Assembly (NCBI GenBank): GCA_020436085.1
Contig: JAGQYM010000024.1
Coordinates: 1-47,236 of the forward strand
DNA: 47,236 bases
Source of the DNA: Cyclobacteriaceae bacterium
GTDB taxonomy: Bacteria; Bacteroidota; Bacteroidia; Cytophagales; Cyclobacteriaceae
Direction of reading: 5' to 3'
Position 1 is the stretch's first letter; each line of letters begins with the position of its first letter. A model generated the notes under the pieces. The model had not been told where the DNA came from, made no database searches, and was given only the letters and a program-made list of their open reading frames with translations. A program made the translations under genes and the position numbers. This document shows positions 18,383 through 41,372 of this stretch, in pieces.

Positions 18383-18398
18383 AAAAAAGGGCAAATCG
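18383..18398 (-). terminator. U-tract after the SRP RNA terminal stem
   Basis: On the minus strand the 3' arm of the SRP RNA stem runs directly into TTTTTT. Stem plus U-tract form an intrinsic terminator for the RNA gene. Confidence 0.6.
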
Positions 18399-18482
18399 AA
18401 CATCGCACCGCTACAACCACCTACCCTTGCTACCTTCCGGTCCTGGGGGAGTTCAGCAGGAGCTGGTCGTGCCGATTTGCCG
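18389..18482 (-). ncRNA. ffs: Signal recognition particle RNA (4.5S, small bacterial type)
   Basis: Read on the minus strand, the outer stem GGCAAATCG (18473-18481) pairs with CGATTTGCC (18390-18398). The apical domain contains CAGGACCGGAAGGTAGCAAGGG, with the GGAA tetraloop closed by C-G pairs and the AGCA of the asymmetric bulge where Ffh binds. Length is about 94 nt, which fits the small SRP RNA without an Alu domain. It scaffolds Ffh for co-translational membrane targeting. The terminal stem is followed by six U residues (18383-18388), so the RNA's own 3' stem probably also works as its terminator. A near-perfect Bacteroidota promoter lies right upstream. Confidence 0.93.
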
Positions 18483-18487
18483 GGTGG

Positions 18488-18518
18488 CAAAGGTAGCGAT
18501 ATGCACCAAACGATCAAA
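18488..18518 (-). promoter_or_regulatory. Promoter of the SRP RNA gene
   Basis: On the minus strand: TTTG (18515-18518), exactly 19 nt, then TACCTTTG (18488-18495). This is the full Bacteroidota housekeeping promoter consensus (TTTG, 19 nt, TAnnTTTG). The predicted start point coincides with the 5' end of the RNA near 18482. Confidence 0.8.
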
Positions 18519-30618: not shown

Positions 30619-32664
30619 ATGAAATACACCTTTATCACAATTATCTCTCTGGTTTTACTGGCCTCATGTTCTACCAGCACCAACGAGGCTGTCAAAAGCG
30701 AGGGTCTCGAATTGTCAAACATGGATACTACCGTACGTCCGCAGGATGATATTTTTCGGTTTGCCAACGGTGCCTGGCTGGACAGAACTGTAATTCCGGG
30801 TGATAAGGGTTCTTGGGGCAGTGGTAACGAAGTTTTTGAGCACAACAATGAGGTGCTGCTCGAACTTTTAAAAACTGCGGCTTCAAACCCAGAATATGTG
30901 GAAGGTTCTGATCAGCGCAAAGCATCAGATTTTTACAGTATCGGCATGGACTCCCTTTTAGCTGAAAAGGTTGGGGTATCCGTTCTAGAACCAACGTTCA
31001 AAAAGATTGCAGAAATAAAGAATAATAAGTCGCTGACGGCTTACCTGGCGGATCAAGAGTTAGAAGGTGGAGGCGCCTTCTTCGGTATTTTCATTATTCC
31101 CGATCTAAAACAAGCCGATAAAGTGGCCGCCTACTTTGGCTCCGGTGGACTCGGCCTCCCGGAGCGAGACTACTACCTGAAGACAGATGAGAAGTCGAAG
31201 GAGACAAGAGATGAATACGTGAAGCATGTGAGTAAGATGTTGCAGCTCACTGGTGAGTCCATGGAAATTGCCAACAGGCATGCCAGCCAAATTTTGGCAC
31301 TGGAGACCAAACTAGCTTCTGCAACCCTCACCAAAGAAGAGAGTAGAGACCCTTCAAAGCAGTACCATAAAAAATCAGTGGCTGACCTAGGTCAAATGGT
31401 ACCAGCTATCGATTGGAAATCTTATTTAGGGACACTGGGAGTGACGGAAGATACCTTGATTGTCACAGAACCAAAATTCATGATACAATGCCAGGAGATG
31501 TTTGCGTCAGGCAAATGGGATGAAGTTCAAACCTATCTAAAATGGTCAGCATTGAATGGAGCGGCACCATTCCTTAATCATGCCGTTGTGCAAGAGTCAT
31601 TTGATTTCAATGGCAAATACCTGAACGGTGTAGAACAAATGAGGCCAAGATGGAAACGAGTAATGAGCACTACCGATAATTTTCTGGGTGAAGCCATCGG
31701 ACAATTGTATGTCGACAAAGTATTTCCACCTGAGGCGAAAGCCAAAGCATTAGAGATGGTTGAAAACATCAAGTTGGCAATGGCAGATCGGATAAAGCAA
31801 TTAGATTGGATGTCCGACTCTACAAAGCAAATGGCGCTAAACAAGTTAAGTACCATCAACGTAAAGGTCGGTTATCCCGATGAATGGAAAAGCTACGCAG
31901 GACTTCAGATAGAAAAATCACCCGAGAAAAGCTCGTACTATCAAAATGCTGTAAACGCGTCACGCTTTCAGGTGCGTCAGGCGATTAACAAACTTGGAAA
32001 ACCCGTAAATAAAAAGGAGTGGCAGATGACCCCGCAAACGGTCAACGCATACTACAATCCCCTGTTCAACGAGATTGTGTTTCCCGCAGGGATACTTCAG
32101 CCTCCATTTTATAATTACAAAGCTGATGAAGCTGTGAACTACGGAGGTATTGGTGCTGTAATAGGCCACGAGATTTCACACGGCTTTGACGACTCAGGAT
32201 CTCGTTTTGATGCAGAGGGAAATCTGAAGAACTGGTGGGGAGAGGAAGATCTGGAGAAATTTAAAGGCAAGGGAAAGGCCCTGGCTGATCAATACAGCAG
32301 CTATGAACCATTGGAAGGACAACATCTTCAGGGCGAGTTTACTTTGGGAGAAAATATTGGTGACCTCGGAGGTATAATCATCGCTTACGAAGGACTTCAA
32401 CGCTACCTGAGAGAGAAGGGAAACCCCGGTCTGATTGACGGATATACACCTGAGCAACGATTCTTTCTTTCATGGGCTACTATCTGGCGTACGAAATATC
32501 GCGATGAATACCTGAGAACCTTGATTAATACGGACCCCCATTCACCAAATCAGTACCGGGCCAGCGTGCCCCTTACCAATGTCGATCAGTTTTATAAAGC
32601 TTTTGATGTAAAAGAAGGTGATAAGCTATATCGAAGCGAATCAGATAGGGTGAAGATTTGGTAA
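30619..32664 (+). CDS. M13 family zinc metallopeptidase (neprilysin-like), lipoprotein
   Basis: A 681-residue enzyme. The N-terminus is a lipoprotein signal with the lipobox LASC (lipidated Cys17). The zinc site is complete: GHEISHGFDD supplies His517, Glu518 and His521, and GENIGDLGG supplies Glu578 and the supporting Asp582. The substrate-binding motif NAYYNP (near 476) and the C-terminal YRASVPLTNVDQFYKAFDV and YRSESDRVKIW end are typical for the family. It is expected to cleave oligopeptides on the hydrophobic side of the scissile bond, acting at the periplasmic or outer face. The usual family length is close to 680. The gene appears to be a single unit, with the bTHX promoter directly downstream. 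Confidence 0.95.
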   Translation: MKYTFITIISLVLLASCSTSTNEAVKSEGLELSNMDTTVRPQDDIFRFANGAWLDRTVIPGDKGSWGSGNEVFEHNNEVLLELLKTAASNPEYVEGSDQRKASDFYSIGMDSLLAEKVGVSVLEPTFKKIAEIKNNKSLTAYLADQELEGGGAFFGIFIIPDLKQADKVAAYFGSGGLGLPERDYYLKTDEKSKETRDEYVKHVSKMLQLTGESMEIANRHASQILALETKLASATLTKEESRDPSKQYHKKSVADLGQMVPAIDWKSYLGTLGVTEDTLIVTEPKFMIQCQEMFASGKWDEVQTYLKWSALNGAAPFLNHAVVQESFDFNGKYLNGVEQMRPRWKRVMSTTDNFLGEAIGQLYVDKVFPPEAKAKALEMVENIKLAMADRIKQLDWMSDSTKQMALNKLSTINVKVGYPDEWKSYAGLQIEKSPEKSSYYQNAVNASRFQVRQAINKLGKPVNKKEWQMTPQTVNAYYNPLFNEIVFPAGILQPPFYNYKADEAVNYGGIGAVIGHEISHGFDDSGSRFDAEGNLKNWWGEEDLEKFKGKGKALADQYSSYEPLEGQHLQGEFTLGENIGDLGGIIIAYEGLQRYLREKGNPGLIDGYTPEQRFFLSWATIWRTKYRDEYLRTLINTDPHSPNQYRASVPLTNVDQFYKAFDVKEGDKLYRSESDRVKIW

Positions 32665-32692
32665 AAGCAGCGGCCTAAAGTGTTCGAACGGG

Positions 32693-32723
32693 TTTGTAAA
32701 AATGAAACCCTTTATTATTATTG
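32693..32723 (+). promoter_or_regulatory. Promoter upstream of bTHX and probably of the trp operon
   Basis: TTTG at 32693-32696, exactly 19 nt, then TATTATTG at 32716-32723 (one mismatch to TAnnTTTG). It implies transcription from about 32730. This also shows that the upstream in-frame ATG at 32702 cannot be the bTHX start on this transcript. Confidence 0.6.
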
Positions 32724-32743
32724 CTGCTCGAATTGATCTATTT

Positions 32744-32920
32744 ATGGGAAGAGGAGACAAAAAATCAAGAAAAGGTAAAATCTGGAAAGGCTCTTATGGC
32801 AATACCAGAAGACGCAAATCAAATACTACTGGTGCTGCTGCTGTAAGCCAGGCTGAAGGCGCAGAAACAAAGCCTAAGGCAAAAAAGGCACCTAAGAAAA
32901 GAGCGAAAGCTGCTGAATAA
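32744..32920 (+). CDS. 30S ribosomal protein bTHX
   Basis: A 58-residue basic protein starting MGRGDKKSRKGKIWKGSYGNTRRRK, the hallmark of ribosomal protein THX, which inserts in the head of the 30S subunit. The rest is an Ala/Lys-rich tail. I use the ATG at 32744, since the family begins exactly with MGRGDKK and the candidate promoter lies between the earlier ATG (32702) and this one. Its TAA stop overlaps the ATG of the tryptophan leader peptide (TAATG at 32918-32922). This makes bTHX the first gene of a possible bTHX-trp transcript. Confidence 0.93.
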   Translation: MGRGDKKSRKGKIWKGSYGNTRRRKSNTTGAAAVSQAEGAETKPKAKKAPKKRAKAAE

Positions 32921-32991
32921 TGAAATTGAATTACAACATAGCGTGGTGGTGGCATACTCCTGAAATCGGGGATAGGCTTACTATGCTATAG
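32920..32991 (+). CDS. trpL: Tryptophan leader peptide (attenuator control peptide)
   Basis: A 23-codon frame beginning at the ATG that overlaps the bTHX stop. Codons 9-11 are three consecutive TGG Trp codons (32944-32952), within the peptide segment NIAWWWHTPE. It ends at TAG 32989-32991, 76 nt before the trpE start. Ribosome position on this frame would decide between two RNA folds downstream. If charged tRNA-Trp is scarce, ribosomes stall on the Trp codons, leaving the segment 32965-32979 free to form the antiterminator. If Trp is plentiful, they run on to the stop and cover that segment. No other function is expected. It is too short for standard gene finders. Confidence 0.87.
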   Translation: MKLNYNIAWWWHTPEIGDRLTML

Positions 32992-33053
32992 TTGAATTAA
33001 AGAATATTTTAATGAAGCCCGCCCCGATACATCGGGGCGGGCTTTTTGTTTTT
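32965..33053 (+). promoter_or_regulatory. trp operon attenuator (mutually exclusive antiterminator/terminator)
   Basis: Segment 2 at 32965-32979 (ATCGGGG, ATA, GGCTT) can pair with segment 3 at 33015-33028: GGCTT with AAGCC (33015-33019) and ATCGGGG with CCCCGAT (33022-33028), giving 7 + 5 bp around a small internal loop. Segment 3 can instead pair fully with segment 4 (33031-33044) to make the terminator. Segment 2 lies inside the leader peptide frame, codons 16-20, so a ribosome near the leader stop would hide it. A weaker pairing between ATAGC (32938-32942) and GCTAT (32985-32989) might serve as the 1:2 protector. This is the classical ribosome-mediated logic for trp operons. Confidence 0.85.
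33015..33053 (+). terminator. Intrinsic terminator of the trp attenuator
   Basis: Arms AAGCCCGCCCCGAT (33015-33028) and ATCGGGGCGGGCTT (33031-33044) are perfectly complementary over 14 bp, G/C-rich, followed by TTTTTGTTTTT (33043-33053). It ends 14 nt before the trpE start codon. Confidence 0.93.
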
Positions 33054-33066
33054 ATGGCATTGTGAT

Positions 33067-34464
33067 ATGAAGAAGATTAAAATTTTTACCCGATCACGTA
33101 CGCTGTTGGCAGACACGCTCACGCCTGTTAACATTTATTTGAAACTGCGGGATCAGTACGCAGGAAGTATTCTATTGGAAAGCTCAGACTATCACGGCCA
33201 GGAAAATAGCCTGTCGCTGATCTGCTGCCAACCGATCGCTTCCTTTGAAGTCAATGATTTCGTTCTGAAAGTGAGCTACCCTGATGGATCAAACACAACG
33301 GAGAAACTTTCAGGCGATGGAGACCTGATCAGAAGACTAAATGACTTCAGAAGTGAATTTGACGTGATATCACCACAAACCAAATATGTTTCCGGTGGTT
33401 TGTTCGGATACATGGCCTATGATGCCGTCCGATATTTTGAAGAGGTGGCAATTGACAGAAGAGAGAAACTGGTGCCGGAAGTATTGTACAAGGTTTTTAA
33501 ATATGTAATCGTAGTCGACCATTTTTCAAATACACTTACGCTGTTTGAAAATGCAATTAGTGAAGATGAACCCTGTCAACTGGATCAGTTGCAGCAACTG
33601 ATTTTTAGCAATCGTTTCTCAACTTTCCGTTTTAGCACATCACAGACTGAATCCTCCGACCTTACCGATGAAGAGTTTAAAAAATTAGTATCTGCAGGCA
33701 TCGGTCATTGCCAACGTGGAGATGTTTTTCAAATCGTCTTGTCCAGGAGATTTACCACCTCTTTTCATGGAGATGAGTTTAATGTGTATCGTGCCTTGCG
33801 TTCAATCAATCCATCACCCTACCTCTTCTATTTCGACTTCGGCAGTTTTAAAATTTTTGGCTCCAGCCCAGAAGCTCAACTGCAGATTAAAGGACAAGAA
33901 GCTTCCATCTTTCCAATTGCCGGCACATTCAAGCGTACAGGCGATGACAAAGAGGATGCGCTATTGGCAGAAGAGCTATCAAAAGATGAAAAAGAGAATG
34001 CTGAGCACGTGATGCTGGTTGACCTCGCAAGAAATGATCTCAGTAGAAATGCAGCCGAGGTAAAAGTAGAAGTATTCAAAGAGATTCAATACTACAGCCA
34101 TGTGATACACCTGGTTTCAAAAGTGACAGGAAAACTTACCAATGGCTCGCCACTTAAGGTTGTAGCCGATACATTTCCCGCTGGTACATTGTCAGGTGCA
34201 CCCAAACACAAGGCACTGACGCTCATTGAAAAATATGAAAAGGTAAATCGCAACTTCTACGGGGGTGCGATTGGTTTCATGGGCTTCAACGGAGACTTCA
34301 ACCACGCGATAATGATTCGCACTTTTCTCAGTAAGGCAAACAAGCTGATTACTCAGGCTGGCGCAGGCGTAGTAGCCAAGTCAAAACCTGAAAGCGAACT
34401 ACAGGAAGTAAATAACAAACTGGAGGCTTTGAGAAGGGCTTTACGAATGGCCGAAGAACTTTAA
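33067..34464 (+). CDS. trpE: Anthranilate synthase component I
   Basis: A 465-residue chorismate-binding enzyme. The feedback-inhibition motif LLES(X)10S is intact (Leu36-Ser39 and Ser50), so Trp should inhibit it directly. Catalytic-domain motifs include GGLFGYMAYDAVRYFE near 107, DVFQIVLSRRF near 215, MLVDLARNDLSR near 315, PAGTLSGAPKHKAL near 370 and YGGAIGFMGFNGDFNHAIMIRTF near 396. It converts chorismate to anthranilate with ammonia from TrpG, the first committed step. The TTG at 33046 lies in the terminator U-tract, so the ATG at 33067 is the start. It contains no Trp residue. trpG follows after 10 nt. Confidence 0.96.
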   Translation: MKKIKIFTRSRTLLADTLTPVNIYLKLRDQYAGSILLESSDYHGQENSLSLICCQPIASFEVNDFVLKVSYPDGSNTTEKLSGDGDLIRRLNDFRSEFDVISPQTKYVSGGLFGYMAYDAVRYFEEVAIDRREKLVPEVLYKVFKYVIVVDHFSNTLTLFENAISEDEPCQLDQLQQLIFSNRFSTFRFSTSQTESSDLTDEEFKKLVSAGIGHCQRGDVFQIVLSRRFTTSFHGDEFNVYRALRSINPSPYLFYFDFGSFKIFGSSPEAQLQIKGQEASIFPIAGTFKRTGDDKEDALLAEELSKDEKENAEHVMLVDLARNDLSRNAAEVKVEVFKEIQYYSHVIHLVSKVTGKLTNGSPLKVVADTFPAGTLSGAPKHKALTLIEKYEKVNRNFYGGAIGFMGFNGDFNHAIMIRTFLSKANKLITQAGAGVVAKSKPESELQEVNNKLEALRRALRMAEEL

Positions 34465-34474
34465 GAATGACACA

Positions 34475-35041
34475 ATGCAAATTTTGATTCTCGATAACTA
34501 CGATTCATTCACGTACAATCTGGCGTATCTCCTCACAGAGTTGGGACATCAGCCGGTCGTTATCCGAAACGATAAGATGAGGGTAGAAGAGGTTGCTGCA
34601 TTTGACAAAATCTTGTTATCACCCGGTCCCGGTATACCTGACGAAGCGGGGATTACCAAGCAGGTCATTCGCGAACTCGGTCCCGACAAAAGCATTCTTG
34701 GTGTATGTCTCGGCCACCAGGCAATAGCAGAGGTGTACAACGCTTCTATCTTCAATATGAGTGAGGTGCTTCATGGTGTCACCTCTGTTGTTAGTGTAGT
34801 GGATGAAGGCGAGCGATTGTTTGCGGATGTCCCCGACAAACTGAAAGCCTGTCACTATCACTCGTGGGCTGTTGATCCTAAATCTATCAACGGTATGTTG
34901 AAAGTTACCGCAGTCAATGACAAAGGACTAGTGATGGCAATTTCGCATCAACGCTTTGATGTAAAGGGCGTTCAGTTTCATCCGGAGTCAATTTTGACAG
35001 AACATGGAAAGCAAATGATAAAGAATTGGATAAGTATTTAG
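34475..35041 (+). CDS. trpG: Anthranilate synthase component II (glutamine amidotransferase)
   Basis: A 188-residue class I glutamine amidotransferase. The catalytic Cys78 is in GVCLGHQAI and the His169-Glu171 pair is in QFHPESIL; the oxyanion region LLSPGPGIPDEAG is near 47-59. It hydrolyses glutamine and passes ammonia to TrpE. The sequence is typical for dedicated TrpG, though in some bacteria the same subunit also serves p-aminobenzoate synthase. The start is 10 nt after trpE and trpD begins one base after its stop. Confidence 0.95.
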   Translation: MQILILDNYDSFTYNLAYLLTELGHQPVVIRNDKMRVEEVAAFDKILLSPGPGIPDEAGITKQVIRELGPDKSILGVCLGHQAIAEVYNASIFNMSEVLHGVTSVVSVVDEGERLFADVPDKLKACHYHSWAVDPKSINGMLKVTAVNDKGLVMAISHQRFDVKGVQFHPESILTEHGKQMIKNWISI

Positions 35042-35042
35042 T

Positions 35043-36029
35043 ATGAAAGAGATATTAAACGATTTGATCGGGTATCGGTCGCTTGACAAAGCAACCGCAA
35101 AGAACGTGCTCATTGATCTGGCTTCAGGAAAGTACAACGCGAGCCAAATGAGCGCATTCATCACCATTTACATGATGAGAGCCATCACCATTGATGAACT
35201 CGAAGGCTTTCGTGATGCAATGTTGGAATTGTGTATTCCCCTGGAAACAACCCTGCCGGTAATTGACGTGTGCGGCACAGGCGGTGATGGTAAAAATACC
35301 TTTAATATTTCTACGCTATCCTCTTTTGTGGTGGCGGCCGCTGGGCAGCCAGTCGCAAAACATGGCAACTACGGAGTCTCATCTGTCAGCGGTTCATCCA
35401 ATATGATGGAACATTTTGGCTACACTTTCTCAAACGACAAGGAGCGGCTGAAGGGCGACCTTGAGCGCGCTAATATTTGTTTCATGCACGCACCACTATT
35501 TCATCCCGCGATGAAAAACGTGGCGCCCATTCGAAAAGAACTTGGCGTGAAAACATTCTTTAATATGTTGGGCCCCATGGTTAATCCTGCCTTTCCTCCC
35601 AATCAACTGGTTGGCGTATTTAGCCTGGAGCTTGCACGCCAGTATGGTTATCTCTATCAGCAGTCTGGAAAAAAGTTTATCGTCATACATGACTTGAATG
35701 GCTATGACGAGATATCATTGACAGGTCCATTCAAAATCTATTCCGATGAGGGTGAGGATCAATTGACACCTGAGAATCTCGGACTGCCACAAGTCTCTTC
35801 ATCAGAAATAAGAGGAGGCGAAACTGTAGAAGAAGCCGCTGATATTTTTCAAATGATTTTAACGGGAGCCGGATCTGAAGCACAAAATGCAGTTGTTATA
35901 GCTAATGCCGGGATGGCTTTGCACTGTGCCGACCGATCCCTGGGGTTAGTTGGCTCAATTGACAAAGCGCACAAGACCCTTGAGTCTGGAGCAGCACTAA
36001 CATGTTTCAAAAATCTAATGGCAAAGTAA
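35043..36029 (+). CDS. trpD: Anthranilate phosphoribosyltransferase
   Basis: A 328-residue enzyme that attaches phosphoribose from PRPP to anthranilate. The PRPP-binding CGTGGDGKNTFNIST loop lies near 77-91, KHGNYGVSSVSGSSNMMEHFG near 105-125, and GPMVNPAFP near 179. The anthranilate-side Arg is in APIRKELGVKTFFNMLGP. Length and order match the family and it is not fused to trpG. The next gene begins directly after its stop codon with no gap, indicating coupling. Confidence 0.95.
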   Translation: MKEILNDLIGYRSLDKATAKNVLIDLASGKYNASQMSAFITIYMMRAITIDELEGFRDAMLELCIPLETTLPVIDVCGTGGDGKNTFNISTLSSFVVAAAGQPVAKHGNYGVSSVSGSSNMMEHFGYTFSNDKERLKGDLERANICFMHAPLFHPAMKNVAPIRKELGVKTFFNMLGPMVNPAFPPNQLVGVFSLELARQYGYLYQQSGKKFIVIHDLNGYDEISLTGPFKIYSDEGEDQLTPENLGLPQVSSSEIRGGETVEEAADIFQMILTGAGSEAQNAVVIANAGMALHCADRSLGLVGSIDKAHKTLESGAALTCFKNLMAK

Positions 36030-36857
36030 ATGGATAAGTTGACCGAGATAATCAATCATAAAAAACGCGAGGTAGAAACGCGAAAAGGCCTTTACCCTGT
36101 TCGGTTACTTGAGCAGAGCATTTTCTTTCCCACAAAGAGCCTTTCCTTGAAACACTACATCAAGCGTGAGGATAAATCTGGAATCATAGCTGAGATAAAA
36201 AGAAAATCTCCATCCAAAGGTGATATCAATCCATACGTGTCAGTTGAGCGAACTTCTATCGGATACATGCAGGCAGGTGCATCAGCGTTGTCAATTTTGA
36301 CGGATAAGGAATTCTTCGGAGGGAGCAACGATGACCTTGTTGTAGCCAGACGATTTAATTTTTGTCCAATCCTTAGAAAGGAATTCATCATTGACGAATA
36401 CCAGATAGTTGAGTCAAAGTCAATTGGTGCAGATGCGATCCTTCTGATAGCAGCGGTGTTAAATGAGAACGAACTTCAAGCGCTAACTCGATTCGCGCAT
36501 TCACTTCAATTGGAGGTGCTCATCGAAGTTCATGACGAGTCAGAACTGGATCGCTGTGTAAAAGCCAACTCGGACTTAGTAGGGGTTAATAACAGGAATC
36601 TGAGAACGTTCGAGGTGGACTTGAATCACAGCATTCGCCTTGCAGAAAAACTTTCTGGTGATGTGGTGAAAATTGCAGAGAGCGGAATTGATTCAGCAAC
36701 AACCGCTGCCCATTTACGACAAAATGGATTTGACGGTTTTTTGATTGGAGAAAGATTCATGAAGACTGCCCGACCAGAAATAGCAGCAGGTGAATTCATT
36801 AAAGAGCTAAATCAACTGGAAGCTAAACAGAAATCCAATGCCACGATTAAAGCTTAA
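36030..36857 (+). CDS. trpC: Indole-3-glycerol phosphate synthase
   Basis: A 275-residue TIM-barrel enzyme. Visible motifs are IIAEIKRKSPSKGDI (about 52-66; catalytic Lys and substrate phosphate contacts), LSILTDKEFFGG near 88, PILRKEFIIDEYQI near 113, LVGVNNRNLRTFEVD near 184 and IAESGI near 213. It closes the indole ring by decarboxylating carboxyphenylamino-deoxyribulose phosphate. It starts immediately after trpD and its last 20 nt overlap the start of trpF in a different frame. Confidence 0.95.
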   Translation: MDKLTEIINHKKREVETRKGLYPVRLLEQSIFFPTKSLSLKHYIKREDKSGIIAEIKRKSPSKGDINPYVSVERTSIGYMQAGASALSILTDKEFFGGSNDDLVVARRFNFCPILRKEFIIDEYQIVESKSIGADAILLIAAVLNENELQALTRFAHSLQLEVLIEVHDESELDRCVKANSDLVGVNNRNLRTFEVDLNHSIRLAEKLSGDVVKIAESGIDSATTAAHLRQNGFDGFLIGERFMKTARPEIAAGEFIKELNQLEAKQKSNATIKA

Positions 36858-37464
36858 GGTTTGTGGTATGCGCGAATCAGCCAACATATTGGGCATCGGC
36901 AATATGCAACCAGACTTCATGGGGTTTATTTTCTATAAAGAATCCCCCCGATTCGTGGGTGTTGATTTTAGAATTCCAGATTCACTCAGTAAGGATATAA
37001 AACGAATTGGAGTTTTTGTGAATGCAGACTTTGACGAGACAATGGCAGCCGTGGCCAAACATAAGCTCGATGTTGTTCAGCTGCATGGAGATGAAACTGA
37101 AGATCTATGTCTTAAACTCAAATCAAAGGTTCAGGTAGTCAAAGCATTCGCTGTGGACGATACCTTTGATTTTGATACCATTAGATCCTATGAAACCGCT
37201 GTGGACTACTTTCTTTTTGATACTAAAGGAGCTCAGCGTGGCGGTAATGGCGTGGCTTTCAATTGGCAGGTACTCAAAAAGTACAAAGGTGACATTCCTT
37301 TTTTCTTGAGTGGTGGGATAGACTTGGACAATTTAGGAGGGGCAATTAAAATAAATCATCCTGGTCTTATGGCGGTTGACATCAACAGCGGTATCGAAAT
37401 CAAGCCTGGACTAAAAGACTTAAATAAATTCAGTAAGGTGAAGCAATTAATTACATCATTATGA
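36838..37464 (+). CDS. trpF: Phosphoribosylanthranilate isomerase
   Basis: A 208-residue TIM-barrel isomerase. The N-terminal KVCGM carries the catalytic Cys9, the catalytic Asp is in [18 protein letters not shown] (Asp near 129), and VQLHGDE lies near 80. It converts phosphoribosylanthranilate to its ribulose form by Amadori rearrangement. The start overlaps trpC by 20 nt, and its end overlaps trpB by 4 nt (ATGA). It is a separate gene, not a TrpC-TrpF fusion as in enteric bacteria. Confidence 0.94.
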
Positions 37465-38642
37465 ATTACAAGGTAGACGAACGAGGATACTACGGACAAT
37501 TTGGCGGAGCATTCATTCCCGAAATGTTGTATCCCAATGTTGAAGAGCTGAGGAGTAGATATCTTGATATTATTTCAGCAGATGACTTCAAAAATGAATT
37601 TCATCATTTGTTGAAGACCTATGTCGGCAGGCCTACGCCATTGTATTTTGCTTCGCGCCTTTCGGAGAAATATAATGCTAAAATTTATCTGAAGAGAGAA
37701 GATCTGTGCCATACTGGTGCTCACAAAGTGAACAATACAGTCGGCCAGATCATTTTGGCGAAGCATCTCGGCAAACAAAAAATTATTGCAGAGACTGGCG
37801 CTGGTCAGCATGGTGTGGCCACAGCGACTGTTTGTGCACTCATGGGCTTGGAATGTGTCGTGTACATGGGCAAGTTGGACATGGAGCGCCAGCGACCTAA
37901 TGTGGAACGAATGAGAATATTAGGAGCAACAGTGATACCCGCAGAGAGTGGCAACATGACCTTGAAGGATGCAACAAACGAAGCTATGCGACATTGGATC
38001 AATCATCCTCAGGACACACATTATATCATTGGTTCTGTCGTTGGACCTCATCCTTATCCCGACATGGTGGCTCGCTTTCAATCCGTAATCAGTGAAGAGA
38101 TAAAAAAACAATTGTCATCAGAAATTGGTAATCCATATCCCGATTATGTCGTGGCATGTGTAGGAGGTGGCAGCAATGCAGCGGGAGCTTTTTACCATTA
38201 TGTCGAAGATGAACACGTCAGTCTGATTGGAGTCGAGGCGGCAGGAAAGGGTGTAGATACCGGTGAATCAGCTGCTACGACCGCACTTGGAAAACCAGGA
38301 GTACTTCATGGTAGTAAAACGTTACTAATGCAGACAGATGATGGTCAAGTGATAGAACCTTATTCAATTTCAGCAGGCTTAGATTACCCTGGCATTGGAC
38401 CATGGCATGCGCATTTATTTGAAACCGGTAGATGCACATTTTTAAATGCAACTGATGATGAGGCCATGGAAGCAGGAGTGCTGTTGAGTCGCCTTGAGGG
38501 AATTATTCCGGCAATTGAGTCTGCGCATGCTATCGCTGCACTCGGGAAGATGGATTTGGATGACGAGGATGTAGTTGTTGTCAATCTCAGTGGGCGCGGT
38601 GACAAGGATCTTGAAACCTATATTCGATGGGGTAAATATTAA
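37461..38642 (+). CDS. trpB: Tryptophan synthase beta subunit
   Basis: A 393-residue PLP enzyme. The PLP lysine is Lys89 in [15 protein letters not shown]; the phosphate-binding loop [10 protein letters not shown] is near 232, and E near 111 sits in AETGAGQHG. It couples indole with serine to make tryptophan, with TrpA supplying indole through a tunnel. The sequence is the TrpB1 type (with [11 protein letters not shown] at the N-terminus and GPWHAHL near 314). Start overlaps trpF by 4 nt. The partner trpA is not next but one gene further on. Confidence 0.97.
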
Positions 38643-38675
38643 TCCAACATAAACTCTCAACCAACCAATAATCCA

Positions 38676-39578
38676 ATGATCATCAGGTATATTTTAATCG
38701 GACTGCTCTTTTGTATTGCATGCAATGCAAAAAAAGAAAACACTTTGGACGTTGCTGCCTATAAAGGCGAGATCGAAAAATGGCACGCGGAGAGAGTAGA
38801 CAACGATCTGAAAGGGCCTCATGGTTGGCTAAATCTTGCCGGTTTATTCTGGCTCAACGAGGGATTCAACACATTCGGAAGTGGCGATACCAACGACATC
38901 ATCTTTCCTAAAGGCAAGATTGATGAACAGGCTGGTACGTTTGTAGTACAGAATGGTGAAGTAACGCTACAGACACAACCTGGTGTCGAGATTAAAATCG
39001 ATACGACTTTGGCTTCGAATCAGGTGATTTATTCAGAGGATTTAAAACGTGCGCCTGTACTTAAGCATGGCACACTTGAATGGTTGGTGATTAGCCGCGG
39101 AGGAAAGCTGGCTGTTCGCGTCCGCGATCTTGACAGTGACGCGGTCAAAAATTTCAACGGTGTAGAGCGATATCCAGTCGACCCTGCATGGAGAATAGAA
39201 GGGAAGTTTCAGAAGTATGAAGAGTCAAAGACAATCGACATCACAAACATTCTTGGGCAAACATATCCTCAACCCAATCCGGGGATTCTAATTTTTAATA
39301 TCGGTGACAAAGAGTTTCGCCTCGATGCATTGTCTGAAGGCGGACCAGAGTACTTCATCATTTTCGGAGACCAAACCAATGAACATGAAACTTATCCTTC
39401 CGGGAGATACATGTACGTGGACCCGGAAGATGAAAATGGAAACGTGGTGATAGACTTCAACAAGTCATACAATCCACCTTGTGCGTTTACTGAGTTCGCC
39501 ACCTGTCCATTGCCCCCAAAGCAAAACGTCTTGGACGTTGCGATCACAGCTGGAGAGAAAAATTTTGGAGATCACTAA
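38676..39578 (+). CDS. DUF1684 family lipoprotein inserted in the trp operon
   Basis: A 300-residue protein with a lipoprotein-like signal (IACN, Cys16) and the DUF1684 pattern: IEKWHAERVDNDLKGPHGWLNLAGLFWLNEGFNTFGSGDTNDI near 34-75, then beta-rich segments and YNPPCAFTEFATCPLPPKQN near the end. DUF1684 proteins have no established function. It lies 33 nt after trpB and ends one base before trpA, so it is within the same transcript. It holds five Trp residues in 300, against about six in all seven Trp enzymes. A role in tryptophan synthesis is not suggested by its export signal. Confidence 0.9.
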   Translation: MIIRYILIGLLFCIACNAKKENTLDVAAYKGEIEKWHAERVDNDLKGPHGWLNLAGLFWLNEGFNTFGSGDTNDIIFPKGKIDEQAGTFVVQNGEVTLQTQPGVEIKIDTTLASNQVIYSEDLKRAPVLKHGTLEWLVISRGGKLAVRVRDLDSDAVKNFNGVERYPVDPAWRIEGKFQKYEESKTIDITNILGQTYPQPNPGILIFNIGDKEFRLDALSEGGPEYFIIFGDQTNEHETYPSGRYMYVDPEDENGNVVIDFNKSYNPPCAFTEFATCPLPPKQNVLDVAITAGEKNFGDH

Positions 39579-39579
39579 T

Positions 39580-40365
39580 ATGGTAGCTACAGAAAACAGA
39601 CTTACGAAAGCATTAGCAGGAAAGCGCGACCTTCTTGCTGTATACTATACTGCTGGCTTTCCCGCCTTGAATGATACCGTAGCGATTGGTGAGTCACTAG
39701 CGGAAAACGGAGTAGATATTATCGAAATCGGTATCCCTTTCTCCGATCCGGTTGCAGATGGGCCCGTTATTCAGGCAAGTAATAAAGTGGCCTTGGACAA
39801 TGGCATGAATCTTCGTACGCTTTTGGAGCAGGTAAAAGCCCTTCGATCCAAAATTGAAACTCCCATTGTGTTGATGGGGTATTTCAACCCTGTATTGCAA
39901 TTCGGTGTTGGTCGCTTTTGTATAGCAGCTGCAGATGCAGGAGTAGATGGCCTGATTATTCCAGACCTACCGTTGACCGAATACGTGGAACTTTACAAAG
40001 AAAAATTTGAACAACACGGGTTGATAAATATTTCGCTGATTTCGCCCACTACATCTGAGGAACGAATTCGAAACATCGATGATAACTCCTCCGGGTTCAT
40101 CTATGCGGTCTCCGCGTCTAGCACCACGGGTGCAAAAAAGGAATTTGGCGATGAGCAAATCGAGTACTTTAAGCGACTTCAATCCATGAAGCTTAAAAAC
40201 CCCTTTCTTATTGGCTTCGGGATTTCAAATGCCTCAACATTTAAGACGGCCTCTCAACATGGTGCAGGTGCCATTATCGGTAGCGCGTTTATTGCGATGC
40301 TCCAATCCAGTACCGATCTTAAAAATGATATACGAGATTTTATAAAATCGATTAAGACTTCATGA
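39580..40365 (+). CDS. trpA: Tryptophan synthase alpha subunit
   Basis: A 261-residue TIM-barrel subunit. The catalytic Glu49 (DIIEIGIPFSDP) and Asp60 (DPVADGPVIQ) fall at the classical positions, and GLIIPDLPLTE is near 126-136. It cleaves indole-3-glycerol phosphate to indole and glyceraldehyde 3-phosphate. The true start is the ATG at 39580; an earlier frame start at 39481 would overlap the DUF1684 gene by nearly 100 nt and add residues unlike the family. It overlaps the DAHP synthase gene by 4 nt (ATGA). Confidence 0.96.
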   Translation: MVATENRLTKALAGKRDLLAVYYTAGFPALNDTVAIGESLAENGVDIIEIGIPFSDPVADGPVIQASNKVALDNGMNLRTLLEQVKALRSKIETPIVLMGYFNPVLQFGVGRFCIAAADAGVDGLIIPDLPLTEYVELYKEKFEQHGLINISLISPTTSEERIRNIDDNSSGFIYAVSASSTTGAKKEFGDEQIEYFKRLQSMKLKNPFLIGFGISNASTFKTASQHGAGAIIGSAFIAMLQSSTDLKNDIRDFIKSIKTS

Positions 40366-41372
40366 TCATACAACTTTCAAATGGAGTATCAACAAATGAG
40401 TTGACGGCCATTAATGACACTTTAAAAAAAATCGGCTATAAAGGCACCCCTGTCCAAACGCAGAAAGCTCAATATATCGTAGGTATTGGTAAGAGAGAAT
40501 TTGATATCCGTGAACTAGGTACGTTACCAGGAGTGAGTGATATTCATCGCGTTTCAGATGATTACAAATTAGTGTCGCGAAAGTGGAAGGTGAAGAGAAC
40601 CGTTATTGACTTAGGAGACAACGTGAGCATTGGCAACAGCCACCTTTCAATAATGGCAGGTCCTTGTTCTATTGAATCGGAGGAACAAATTCAAGCTACC
40701 ATTGATCATCTCATTGCCAACGGAGTTAAGATTATGCGTGGTGGTGTTTTCAAACCAAGAAGTTCACCATATTCATTTCGGGGATTAGGAGAGGAGGGCT
40801 TGAAACTCTGGCATGGGTTAGCAAAAAAAGCTGGTATCAAAATCGTAAGCGAAGTGATGCAGATGAGCCAGATTGAGTCGATGTACGACTATGTGGATGT
40901 GTTTCAGGTGGGAGCACGGAATACCCAAAACTTCAACTTGCTTGATGAGCTTGGGAAGATTGACAAACCTGTAATGATCAAAAGGGGAATATCAGGAACG
41001 ATAGAAGAGCTCCTTTCTTCCGCAGAGTATGTCTTCAGTGGGGGCAATGAGAAATTGATTTTGTGTGAACGCGGCATTCGTACATATGAGCGTTCAAGTC
41101 GCAATACAATGGACATCAACGCTATTCCCATTTTGAAGGAAAAGTCACATCTCCCTGTAATTGCAGACCCTTCTCACGGGATTGGTCTCCGTGAATTCGT
41201 GGAACCGGTTGCGCTGGCCAGCATTATGGCAGGAGCCGATGGCATTATTTATGAAACCCATCAGCAGCCTGAAAAGGCATTTAGCGACTCTCAACAGACA
41301 CTTGATTTCTCTGAGTCTGAGCGCCTGTGCAATCGCGCAAGAAAAGCATTTGAGTTAAGAGAAAATTTCTAA
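40362..41372 (+). CDS. aroF: 3-deoxy-7-phosphoheptulonate (DAHP) synthase, AroF/type I-beta class
   Basis: A 336-residue enzyme with an N-terminal ferredoxin-like regulatory domain (about 1-70) followed by the barrel: IMAGPCSIESEEQ near 95, GGVFKPRSSPYSFRGLG near 127, VFQVGARNTQNFNLL near 183, VMIKRGISG near 205, LCERGIRTYE near 229 and IADPSHGIG near 267. It condenses phosphoenolpyruvate with erythrose 4-phosphate, the first step towards chorismate. The type I-beta class often has its own N-terminal regulation. Being the last gene of the trp cluster (ATGA overlap with trpA) links aromatic supply to Trp demand. Confidence 0.93.
   Translation: MIIQLSNGVSTNELTAINDTLKKIGYKGTPVQTQKAQYIVGIGKREFDIRELGTLPGVSDIHRVSDDYKLVSRKWKVKRTVIDLGDNVSIGNSHLSIMAGPCSIESEEQIQATIDHLIANGVKIMRGGVFKPRSSPYSFRGLGEEGLKLWHGLAKKAGIKIVSEVMQMSQIESMYDYVDVFQVGARNTQNFNLLDELGKIDKPVMIKRGISGTIEELLSSAEYVFSGGNEKLILCERGIRTYERSSRNTMDINAIPILKEKSHLPVIADPSHGIGLREFVEPVALASIMAGADGIIYETHQQPEKAFSDSQQTLDFSESERLCNRARKAFELRENF

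Follow-up and report, generated by a model that had tools for sequence, protein, structure and literature searches.

A predicted ribosome-mediated trp attenuator directly behind the bTHX ribosomal protein gene in a Cyclobacteriaceae bacterium

The trp operon of a Cyclobacteriaceae bacterium (assembly GCA_020436085.1, contig JAGQYM010000024.1) is preceded by an element that, judged from its sequence, is very probably a ribosome-mediated transcription attenuator. The whole stretch of DNA that was analysed, 47,236 nt, is referred to below as the window, and the features of the element and its surroundings are collected in Table 1. The leader peptide of the element starts at the very end of the gene for ribosomal protein bTHX, an arrangement that recurs in the genus. 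In this one genus, a ribosomal protein gene appears to supply both promoter and ribosomes to an amino-acid sensor, which makes for a testable architecture.

Table 1. Features of the bTHX-trp region, in positions of the window
Feature	Position	Strand	Basis or remark
Putative sigma-A-type promoter of bTHX	32693..32723	+	TTTG (32693-32696), 19 nt, TATTATTG (32716-32723)
Ribosomal protein bTHX gene, first cistron of the proposed transcript	32744..32920	+	58 aa; profile matches
trp leader peptide ORF, MKLNYNIAWWWHTPEIGDRLTML	32920..32991	+	23 codons plus TAG
Segment 1 (core)	32938..32948	+	MFE fold; partner 32979-32989
Sensor, three adjacent Trp codons	32944..32952	+	leader codons 9-11
Segment 2, antiterminator 5' arm	32965..32979	+	leader codons 16-20; pairs 7+1+5 with 33015-33028
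Segment 3, terminator 5' arm and antiterminator 3' arm	33014..33028	+	
Segment 4, terminator 3' arm (33032-33045) and T tract (33043-33053)	33032..33053	+	
trpE, first structural gene	33067..34464	+	PF00425 and PF04715 matches
trpG, trpD, trpC, trpF, trpB, unassigned gene, trpA, DAHP synthase gene	34475..41372	+	one strand throughout

The window holds a short ORF with adjacent Trp codons ahead of a trp gene; the 23-codon leader with its run of three Trp codons, assigned in a preliminary description to an element at 32920-33053, is present in full. The minimum-free-energy fold of 32921-33056 (136 nt, -56 kcal/mol) comprises a long leader hairpin and a 14-bp terminator, with a z score of -8.0 and no equally good fold among 200 shuffles. 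The G/C-rich terminator with its U tract, also described before, is recovered in this fold as 33014-33027 paired with 33032-33045, followed by the T tract TTTTTGTTTTT at 33043-33053, and trpE starts 13 nt after the tract. An intrinsic terminator between the leader and the first structural gene is found in the window and in its relatives alike.

The alternative pairing of 7 + 5 bp, previously placed between 32965-32979 and 33015-33028, can be read directly: 32965-32971 pairs with 33022-33028 over 7 bp and 32975-32979 with 33015-33019 over 5 bp. This antiterminator takes up the terminator 5' arm and so excludes the terminator. Counted from the last Trp codon, its pairing begins at +13, a position that a ribosome halted on codons 9-11 would not be expected to reach. 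The leader stop codon (32989-32991) begins 10 nt past the end of segment 2, correcting the 12 nt first given, and a ribosome terminating there would therefore cover segment 2.

The proposed mechanism follows the classical E. coli trp attenuator scheme, in which stalling leads to antitermination and the 1:2 hairpin is the default. We infer that scarcity of charged tRNA-Trp would stall the ribosome at the Trp run and leave segment 2 (32965-32979) free; segment 2 would then pair with 33015-33028, no terminator would form, and trpE and the downstream genes would be transcribed. With ample Trp, the ribosome would reach the stop codon at 32989 and mask segment 2, allowing the terminator (33014-33045) to form. 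If the leader were left untranslated, hairpin 1:2 would form and transcription would again terminate.

The genes behind the element form a trp operon (Table 1). The top NCBIfam matches of trpE are TIGR00564 and TIGR01820, both anthranilate synthase component I, and both fall below their cut-offs. Between them, trpB and trpA enclose a protein gene without family assignment (38676-39578), and trpA is followed by a DAHP synthase gene. Elsewhere in the window, at 18385-18489 on the minus strand, stands a small SRP RNA of the Bacteroidales type (RF04183, 77.9 bits).

Conservation was assessed in trpE loci drawn from the genus, the order and contigs of named genomes (the best 80 of 576), together with further upstream stretches; the named loci include Cytophagales, Flavobacteriales and Sphingobacterium/Pedobacter/Mucilaginibacter records. 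A trpE anchor was obtained in 126 of 127 loci, with no match in L129. Removal of two loci without upstream DNA (L014, L130), one with 159 nt only (L105) and one duplicate (L035, identical to L011 around the leader) gave 122 usable loci, 118 of them with at least 900 nt of upstream sequence and the shortest with 205 nt. Shuffled controls in the Trp-run, terminator, pairing and promoter tests preserved dinucleotide composition, with a mononucleotide fallback if the random walk failed (once in the terminator test).

In 100 of the 122 loci, the 900 nt ahead of trpE contain an ORF of 8-60 codons with three adjacent Trp codons; none was found in five shuffle sets or in the reverse complements. The conservation of TGG runs ahead of trpE in relatives, proposed earlier as a check, is thus borne out. 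Clusters of the form WW or W-x-W occur in 13 more loci; this count includes L117, where the sequence, on reading, suggests a genuine WW leader followed by a terminator, and excludes L124, whose WW ORF was set down to chance. No clustered-Trp leader was found in nine of the 122 loci, namely L124 and eight without any match to the regular expression. Among these nine, L037 and L046 carry by eye a leader with one Trp, in the context Cys-Trp-Arg, and a GCTGTT-type hairpin with a T run.

Terminators are equally widespread. In the set used for the terminator and pairing tests (113 leader loci, including the duplicate L035 and omitting L117 as doubtful), a terminator hairpin lies downstream of the leader in all 113, each at -12.1 kcal/mol or better and with a mean of -19.2. 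The same finder, run on shuffled stretches, returned something in 84 of 113 cases, with a mean of -4.2 and none at -12 or better. Predicted textbook-style trp attenuators are the rule among the sampled Bacteroidota trpE loci. A UUCAC or AUCAC terminator loop is conserved in many leader loci (e.g. L026, L039); it is predicted to pair with a GUGAA(C) or UGAGC-type segment 2, and hence to be part of the antiterminator in many loci.

The sampled peptides also bear on how Trp would be sensed. A core of the form xWWWH is common to many leaders of the genus, as might be expected if the nascent peptide sensed free Trp in the manner of TnaC, instead of the ribosome responding to slow decoding of Trp codons. 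We consider this very improbable: it is the three adjacent Trp codons that recur across the loci, whereas the residues around them vary widely, and the DR residues common to a subgroup are encoded by RNA segment 2.

The alternative pairing was evaluated with an alignment-free test, in which the duplex energy of segment 2 with the terminator 5' arm plus loop of its own locus was compared with that obtained with the arms of other loci. Over 48 non-redundant loci, own pairing averaged -12.79 kcal/mol against -9.42 (sd 0.37) for permuted partners, the lowest of 5000 permutations reaching -10.76; over all 113 loci the values were -11.40 and -9.22 (sd 0.20). Reversal of the own arm gave a mean of -9.15, with the true arm better in 39 of 48 loci, and shuffling of segment 2 gave a mean of -8.64, which the true segment surpassed in 43 of 48. 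Since the loci are related, these values should not be read as clean probabilities. The matching pairs themselves differ by lineage: GTGAACAGC/GCTGTTCAC, GATCGG/CCGATC, AATCGGGG/CCCCGAT and GGCGATAAGTC/GACTTATCGC. Many flavobacterial antiterminators are energetically poor, at about -5 to -10 kcal/mol.

A first version of the pairing test gave z below -2 against mononucleotide shuffles in only 39 of 113 loci, and placed the own terminator among the best 5% for only 19 of 113. In that version the Trp run was considered to end at the final Trp of the peptide, which mis-set several loci (e.g. L011, L018, L026); the later test anchors on the first Trp run.

Fixed-column counts were made on an alignment (A1) that comprises 16 of the 29 sequences from the genus. 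The terminator scored 0.239 for covariation against 0.174 (sd 0.015) in shuffles, with a number of further pair types that does not exceed the shuffles, and the 1:2 stem scored 0.218 against 0.155 (sd 0.016), or 0.204 when slid by one column. The antiterminator reached 0.143 against 0.120 (sd 0.018), a value attained by 48 of 500 shuffles, with 56.3% of cells paired against 52.1% and 6 pairs changed on both sides against 6.3. This last signal is weak, probably owing to a pairing register that differs from lineage to lineage, and the count was replaced by the alignment-free test. The covariation of both folds that had been suggested as a check is accordingly visible for the alternative stem in the alignment-free test and in the terminator and 1:2 scores, and weak for the antiterminator on fixed columns.

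The same data address the simplest competing explanation, in which the hairpin merely terminates the bTHX transcript and the ORF rich in Trp is a chance frame. The hairpin does stand right behind bTHX and would end its mRNA. Moreover, the enterobacterial Trp_leader model (RF00513), which aligns end to end with the window at 31.7 bits, below its gathering threshold of 41, gives 29.7 bits to a hairpin that follows an unrelated gene, as judged by eye, in the same genome (L004); the RF00513 score is for this reason little evidence and was rejected as a sign of membership. A chance frame is difficult to reconcile with a Trp run that recurs ahead of trpE and never in shuffles, a bTHX terminator with leaders and terminators that stand elsewhere without bTHX in front (by regular expression, up to 900 nt), and either with the co-variation of segment 2 and the terminator arm. 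This explanation is hardly credible. Ribosome-mediated attenuation, as first described, draws its support from the conserved Trp run, the terminator and the co-varying alternative pairing, and remains the predicted function of the element.

The position of the element behind bTHX was absent from the preliminary description. The bTHX assignment follows from two profiles, PF17070 (30.1 bits, cut-off 29.7) and TIGR04560 (47.7 bits, cut-off 26), both exceeding their cut-offs. The leader ATG (32920) overlaps the bTHX stop codon TAA (32918-32920) by one base, in the sequence TAATG. In 26 of the 29 genus loci with upstream DNA, an intact bTHX precedes the leader at a distance, stop to start, of -4 to +18 nt, and the spacing has a median of 2 nt over 29 regular-expression hits (28 without the duplicate L035). 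The arrangement is likewise found in L034, L036 and genome G024 (L133), and in two loci (L016, L026) the bTHX frame found at this position is damaged, with a run of N and apparent frameshifts. In the other loci, the regular expression finds no bTHX in the upstream sequence examined, which was 900 nt or shorter.

One locus of the genus departs from this pattern. In L005 no bTHX was recognised in the 250 nt upstream of the leader; a Lys/Ala-rich frame ends about 170 nt ahead of the leader, a promoter motif lies 50 nt ahead of it, and the bTHX match of this genome is on another contig. A leader that has the motif and no recognised bTHX indicates that the coupling is not essential.

The putative promoter of bTHX in the window contains a TTTG that we take to be the upstream promoter box. 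The corresponding Bacteroidota-type motif, TTG-N17-23-TAnnnTTG, was searched for in the 150 nt before bTHX and lies 17-26 nt before the gene in 27 of 28 loci, against 0-4 in 20 shuffle sets; between the bTHX start and the leader it occurs in 1 of 28. TAnnTTTG is given as the -7 box in PMC9723704. From this position, we infer that the same promoter drives the leader and the trp operon too. With the motif upstream of bTHX, the bTHX transcript too is probably terminated by the attenuator, which may thereby decide whether a bTHX mRNA or a bTHX-trp mRNA is made.

Two draft genomes were considered as natural knock-outs, for which, as drafts, they are only suggestive. In G014 (L137, L132; G014:C480), bTHX is kept. 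The 2.6 kb behind it contain a hairpin whose T run is poor, as well as a gene related to the one that separates trpB from trpA in the window; neither a leader with three adjacent Trp codons nor a recognised trp gene was found in this stretch. In G024 (L136; G024:C96), the leader is followed by the first 74 trpE codons and then, directly, by trpA from its codon 63; either the middle of the operon has been deleted or the assembly is faulty. A search for trpB gave no match in either genome, an empty result that alone shows nothing.

Adjacency and motif position together suggest that the leader has come to sit behind bTHX, with its promoter and possibly its ribosomes. The most explicit form of this proposal is that the trp operon of the genus lacks a separate promoter and depends on that of bTHX, that ribosomes finishing bTHX translate the leader, and that the attenuator ends or extends each bTHX transcript; we favour it by a little over even chances. 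Leader translation would then probably be fed by reinitiation of ribosomes that have just terminated on bTHX, on a shared transcript. The attenuator could also be real and its link to bTHX incidental, with the leader having its own promoter and start site. Outside the bTHX group, the promoter motif lies within 150 nt ahead of the leader in 64 of 81 loci (1-7 in 20 shuffle sets), as it does in L005 within the genus, and both observations would suit a leader that carries its own promoter. They are opposed by the tight spacing of bTHX stop and leader start and by the 27 of 28 loci that have no motif between the bTHX start and the leader. An incidental link is a possibility to be taken seriously, albeit an unlikely one. 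Should the coupling to bTHX hold, the ability of the cell to make Trp would rise and fall with its production of ribosomes, and coupling to the preceding gene would provide reliable loading of the leader in a phylum that makes little use of Shine-Dalgarno sequences.

Leader-peptide attenuation had been called far less documented in Bacteroidota, which was overstated in view of RF01692 (Bacteroid-trp) and the papers that treat it. Table 1 of PMC2864571 lists RF01692 for Bacteroidetes as probably cis-regulatory, and Rfam describes it as 'Bacteroidete tryptophan peptide leader RNA'. PMC6414381 places it before the trp operon of F. psychrophilum and likens it to the E. coli attenuator, and PMC9723704 reports clues, in a flavobacterium, for leader-peptide attenuation ahead of amino-acid operons. 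With RF01692 and these flavobacterial reports, the mechanism in Bacteroidota is known in outline. For an earlier paper, from 2010 (PMC2965389), leader-peptide systems were known from Proteobacteria and Actinobacteria alone, to which it added those of Firmicutes. A narrow literature search, mainly of openly accessible papers, found none linking bTHX to a trp leader.

RF01692 and the window element are alike in standing before trpE in Bacteroidota and in combining an ORF with Trp codons and a terminator. The model matches the leader region in four of 19 loci scanned (L039, L050, L055, L097) and, in a second scan, in one of 14 (L123, which is from the order of the window). The window itself has no match at the gathering threshold of 49 bits, nor at E values up to 10 in 32600-33150. 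The two differ in segments 2 and 3, which read GTGAAC/GTTCAC in RF01692 and AATCGGGG/CCCCGAT in the window, and in the position of the window element directly behind bTHX. The window copy is outside both the RF01692 and the RF00513 models. In the sampled Bacteroidota trpE loci, antiterminators would seem to co-vary while their sequence and register drift past existing Rfam models.

The same genome holds a second likely leader-peptide attenuator, before hisG (L134; G000:C161, 1335-1491). As in known His leader attenuators, a His leader, MTKVQNIHLHHHHLMFNKLSGESMF (with HLHHHH), and a hairpin with a T run directly precede the gene, and this leader would sense a different amino acid from the Trp leader of the window. 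No leader was seen by eye ahead of leuA, where a leuB-like open frame ends just before the gene.

Another close counterpart is the enterobacterial trp leader (RF00513), with which the window element shares adjacent Trp codons, four segments, a G/C-rich terminator and a U tract before trpE. The E. coli transcript opens with trpL, whereas the leader of the window follows another gene.
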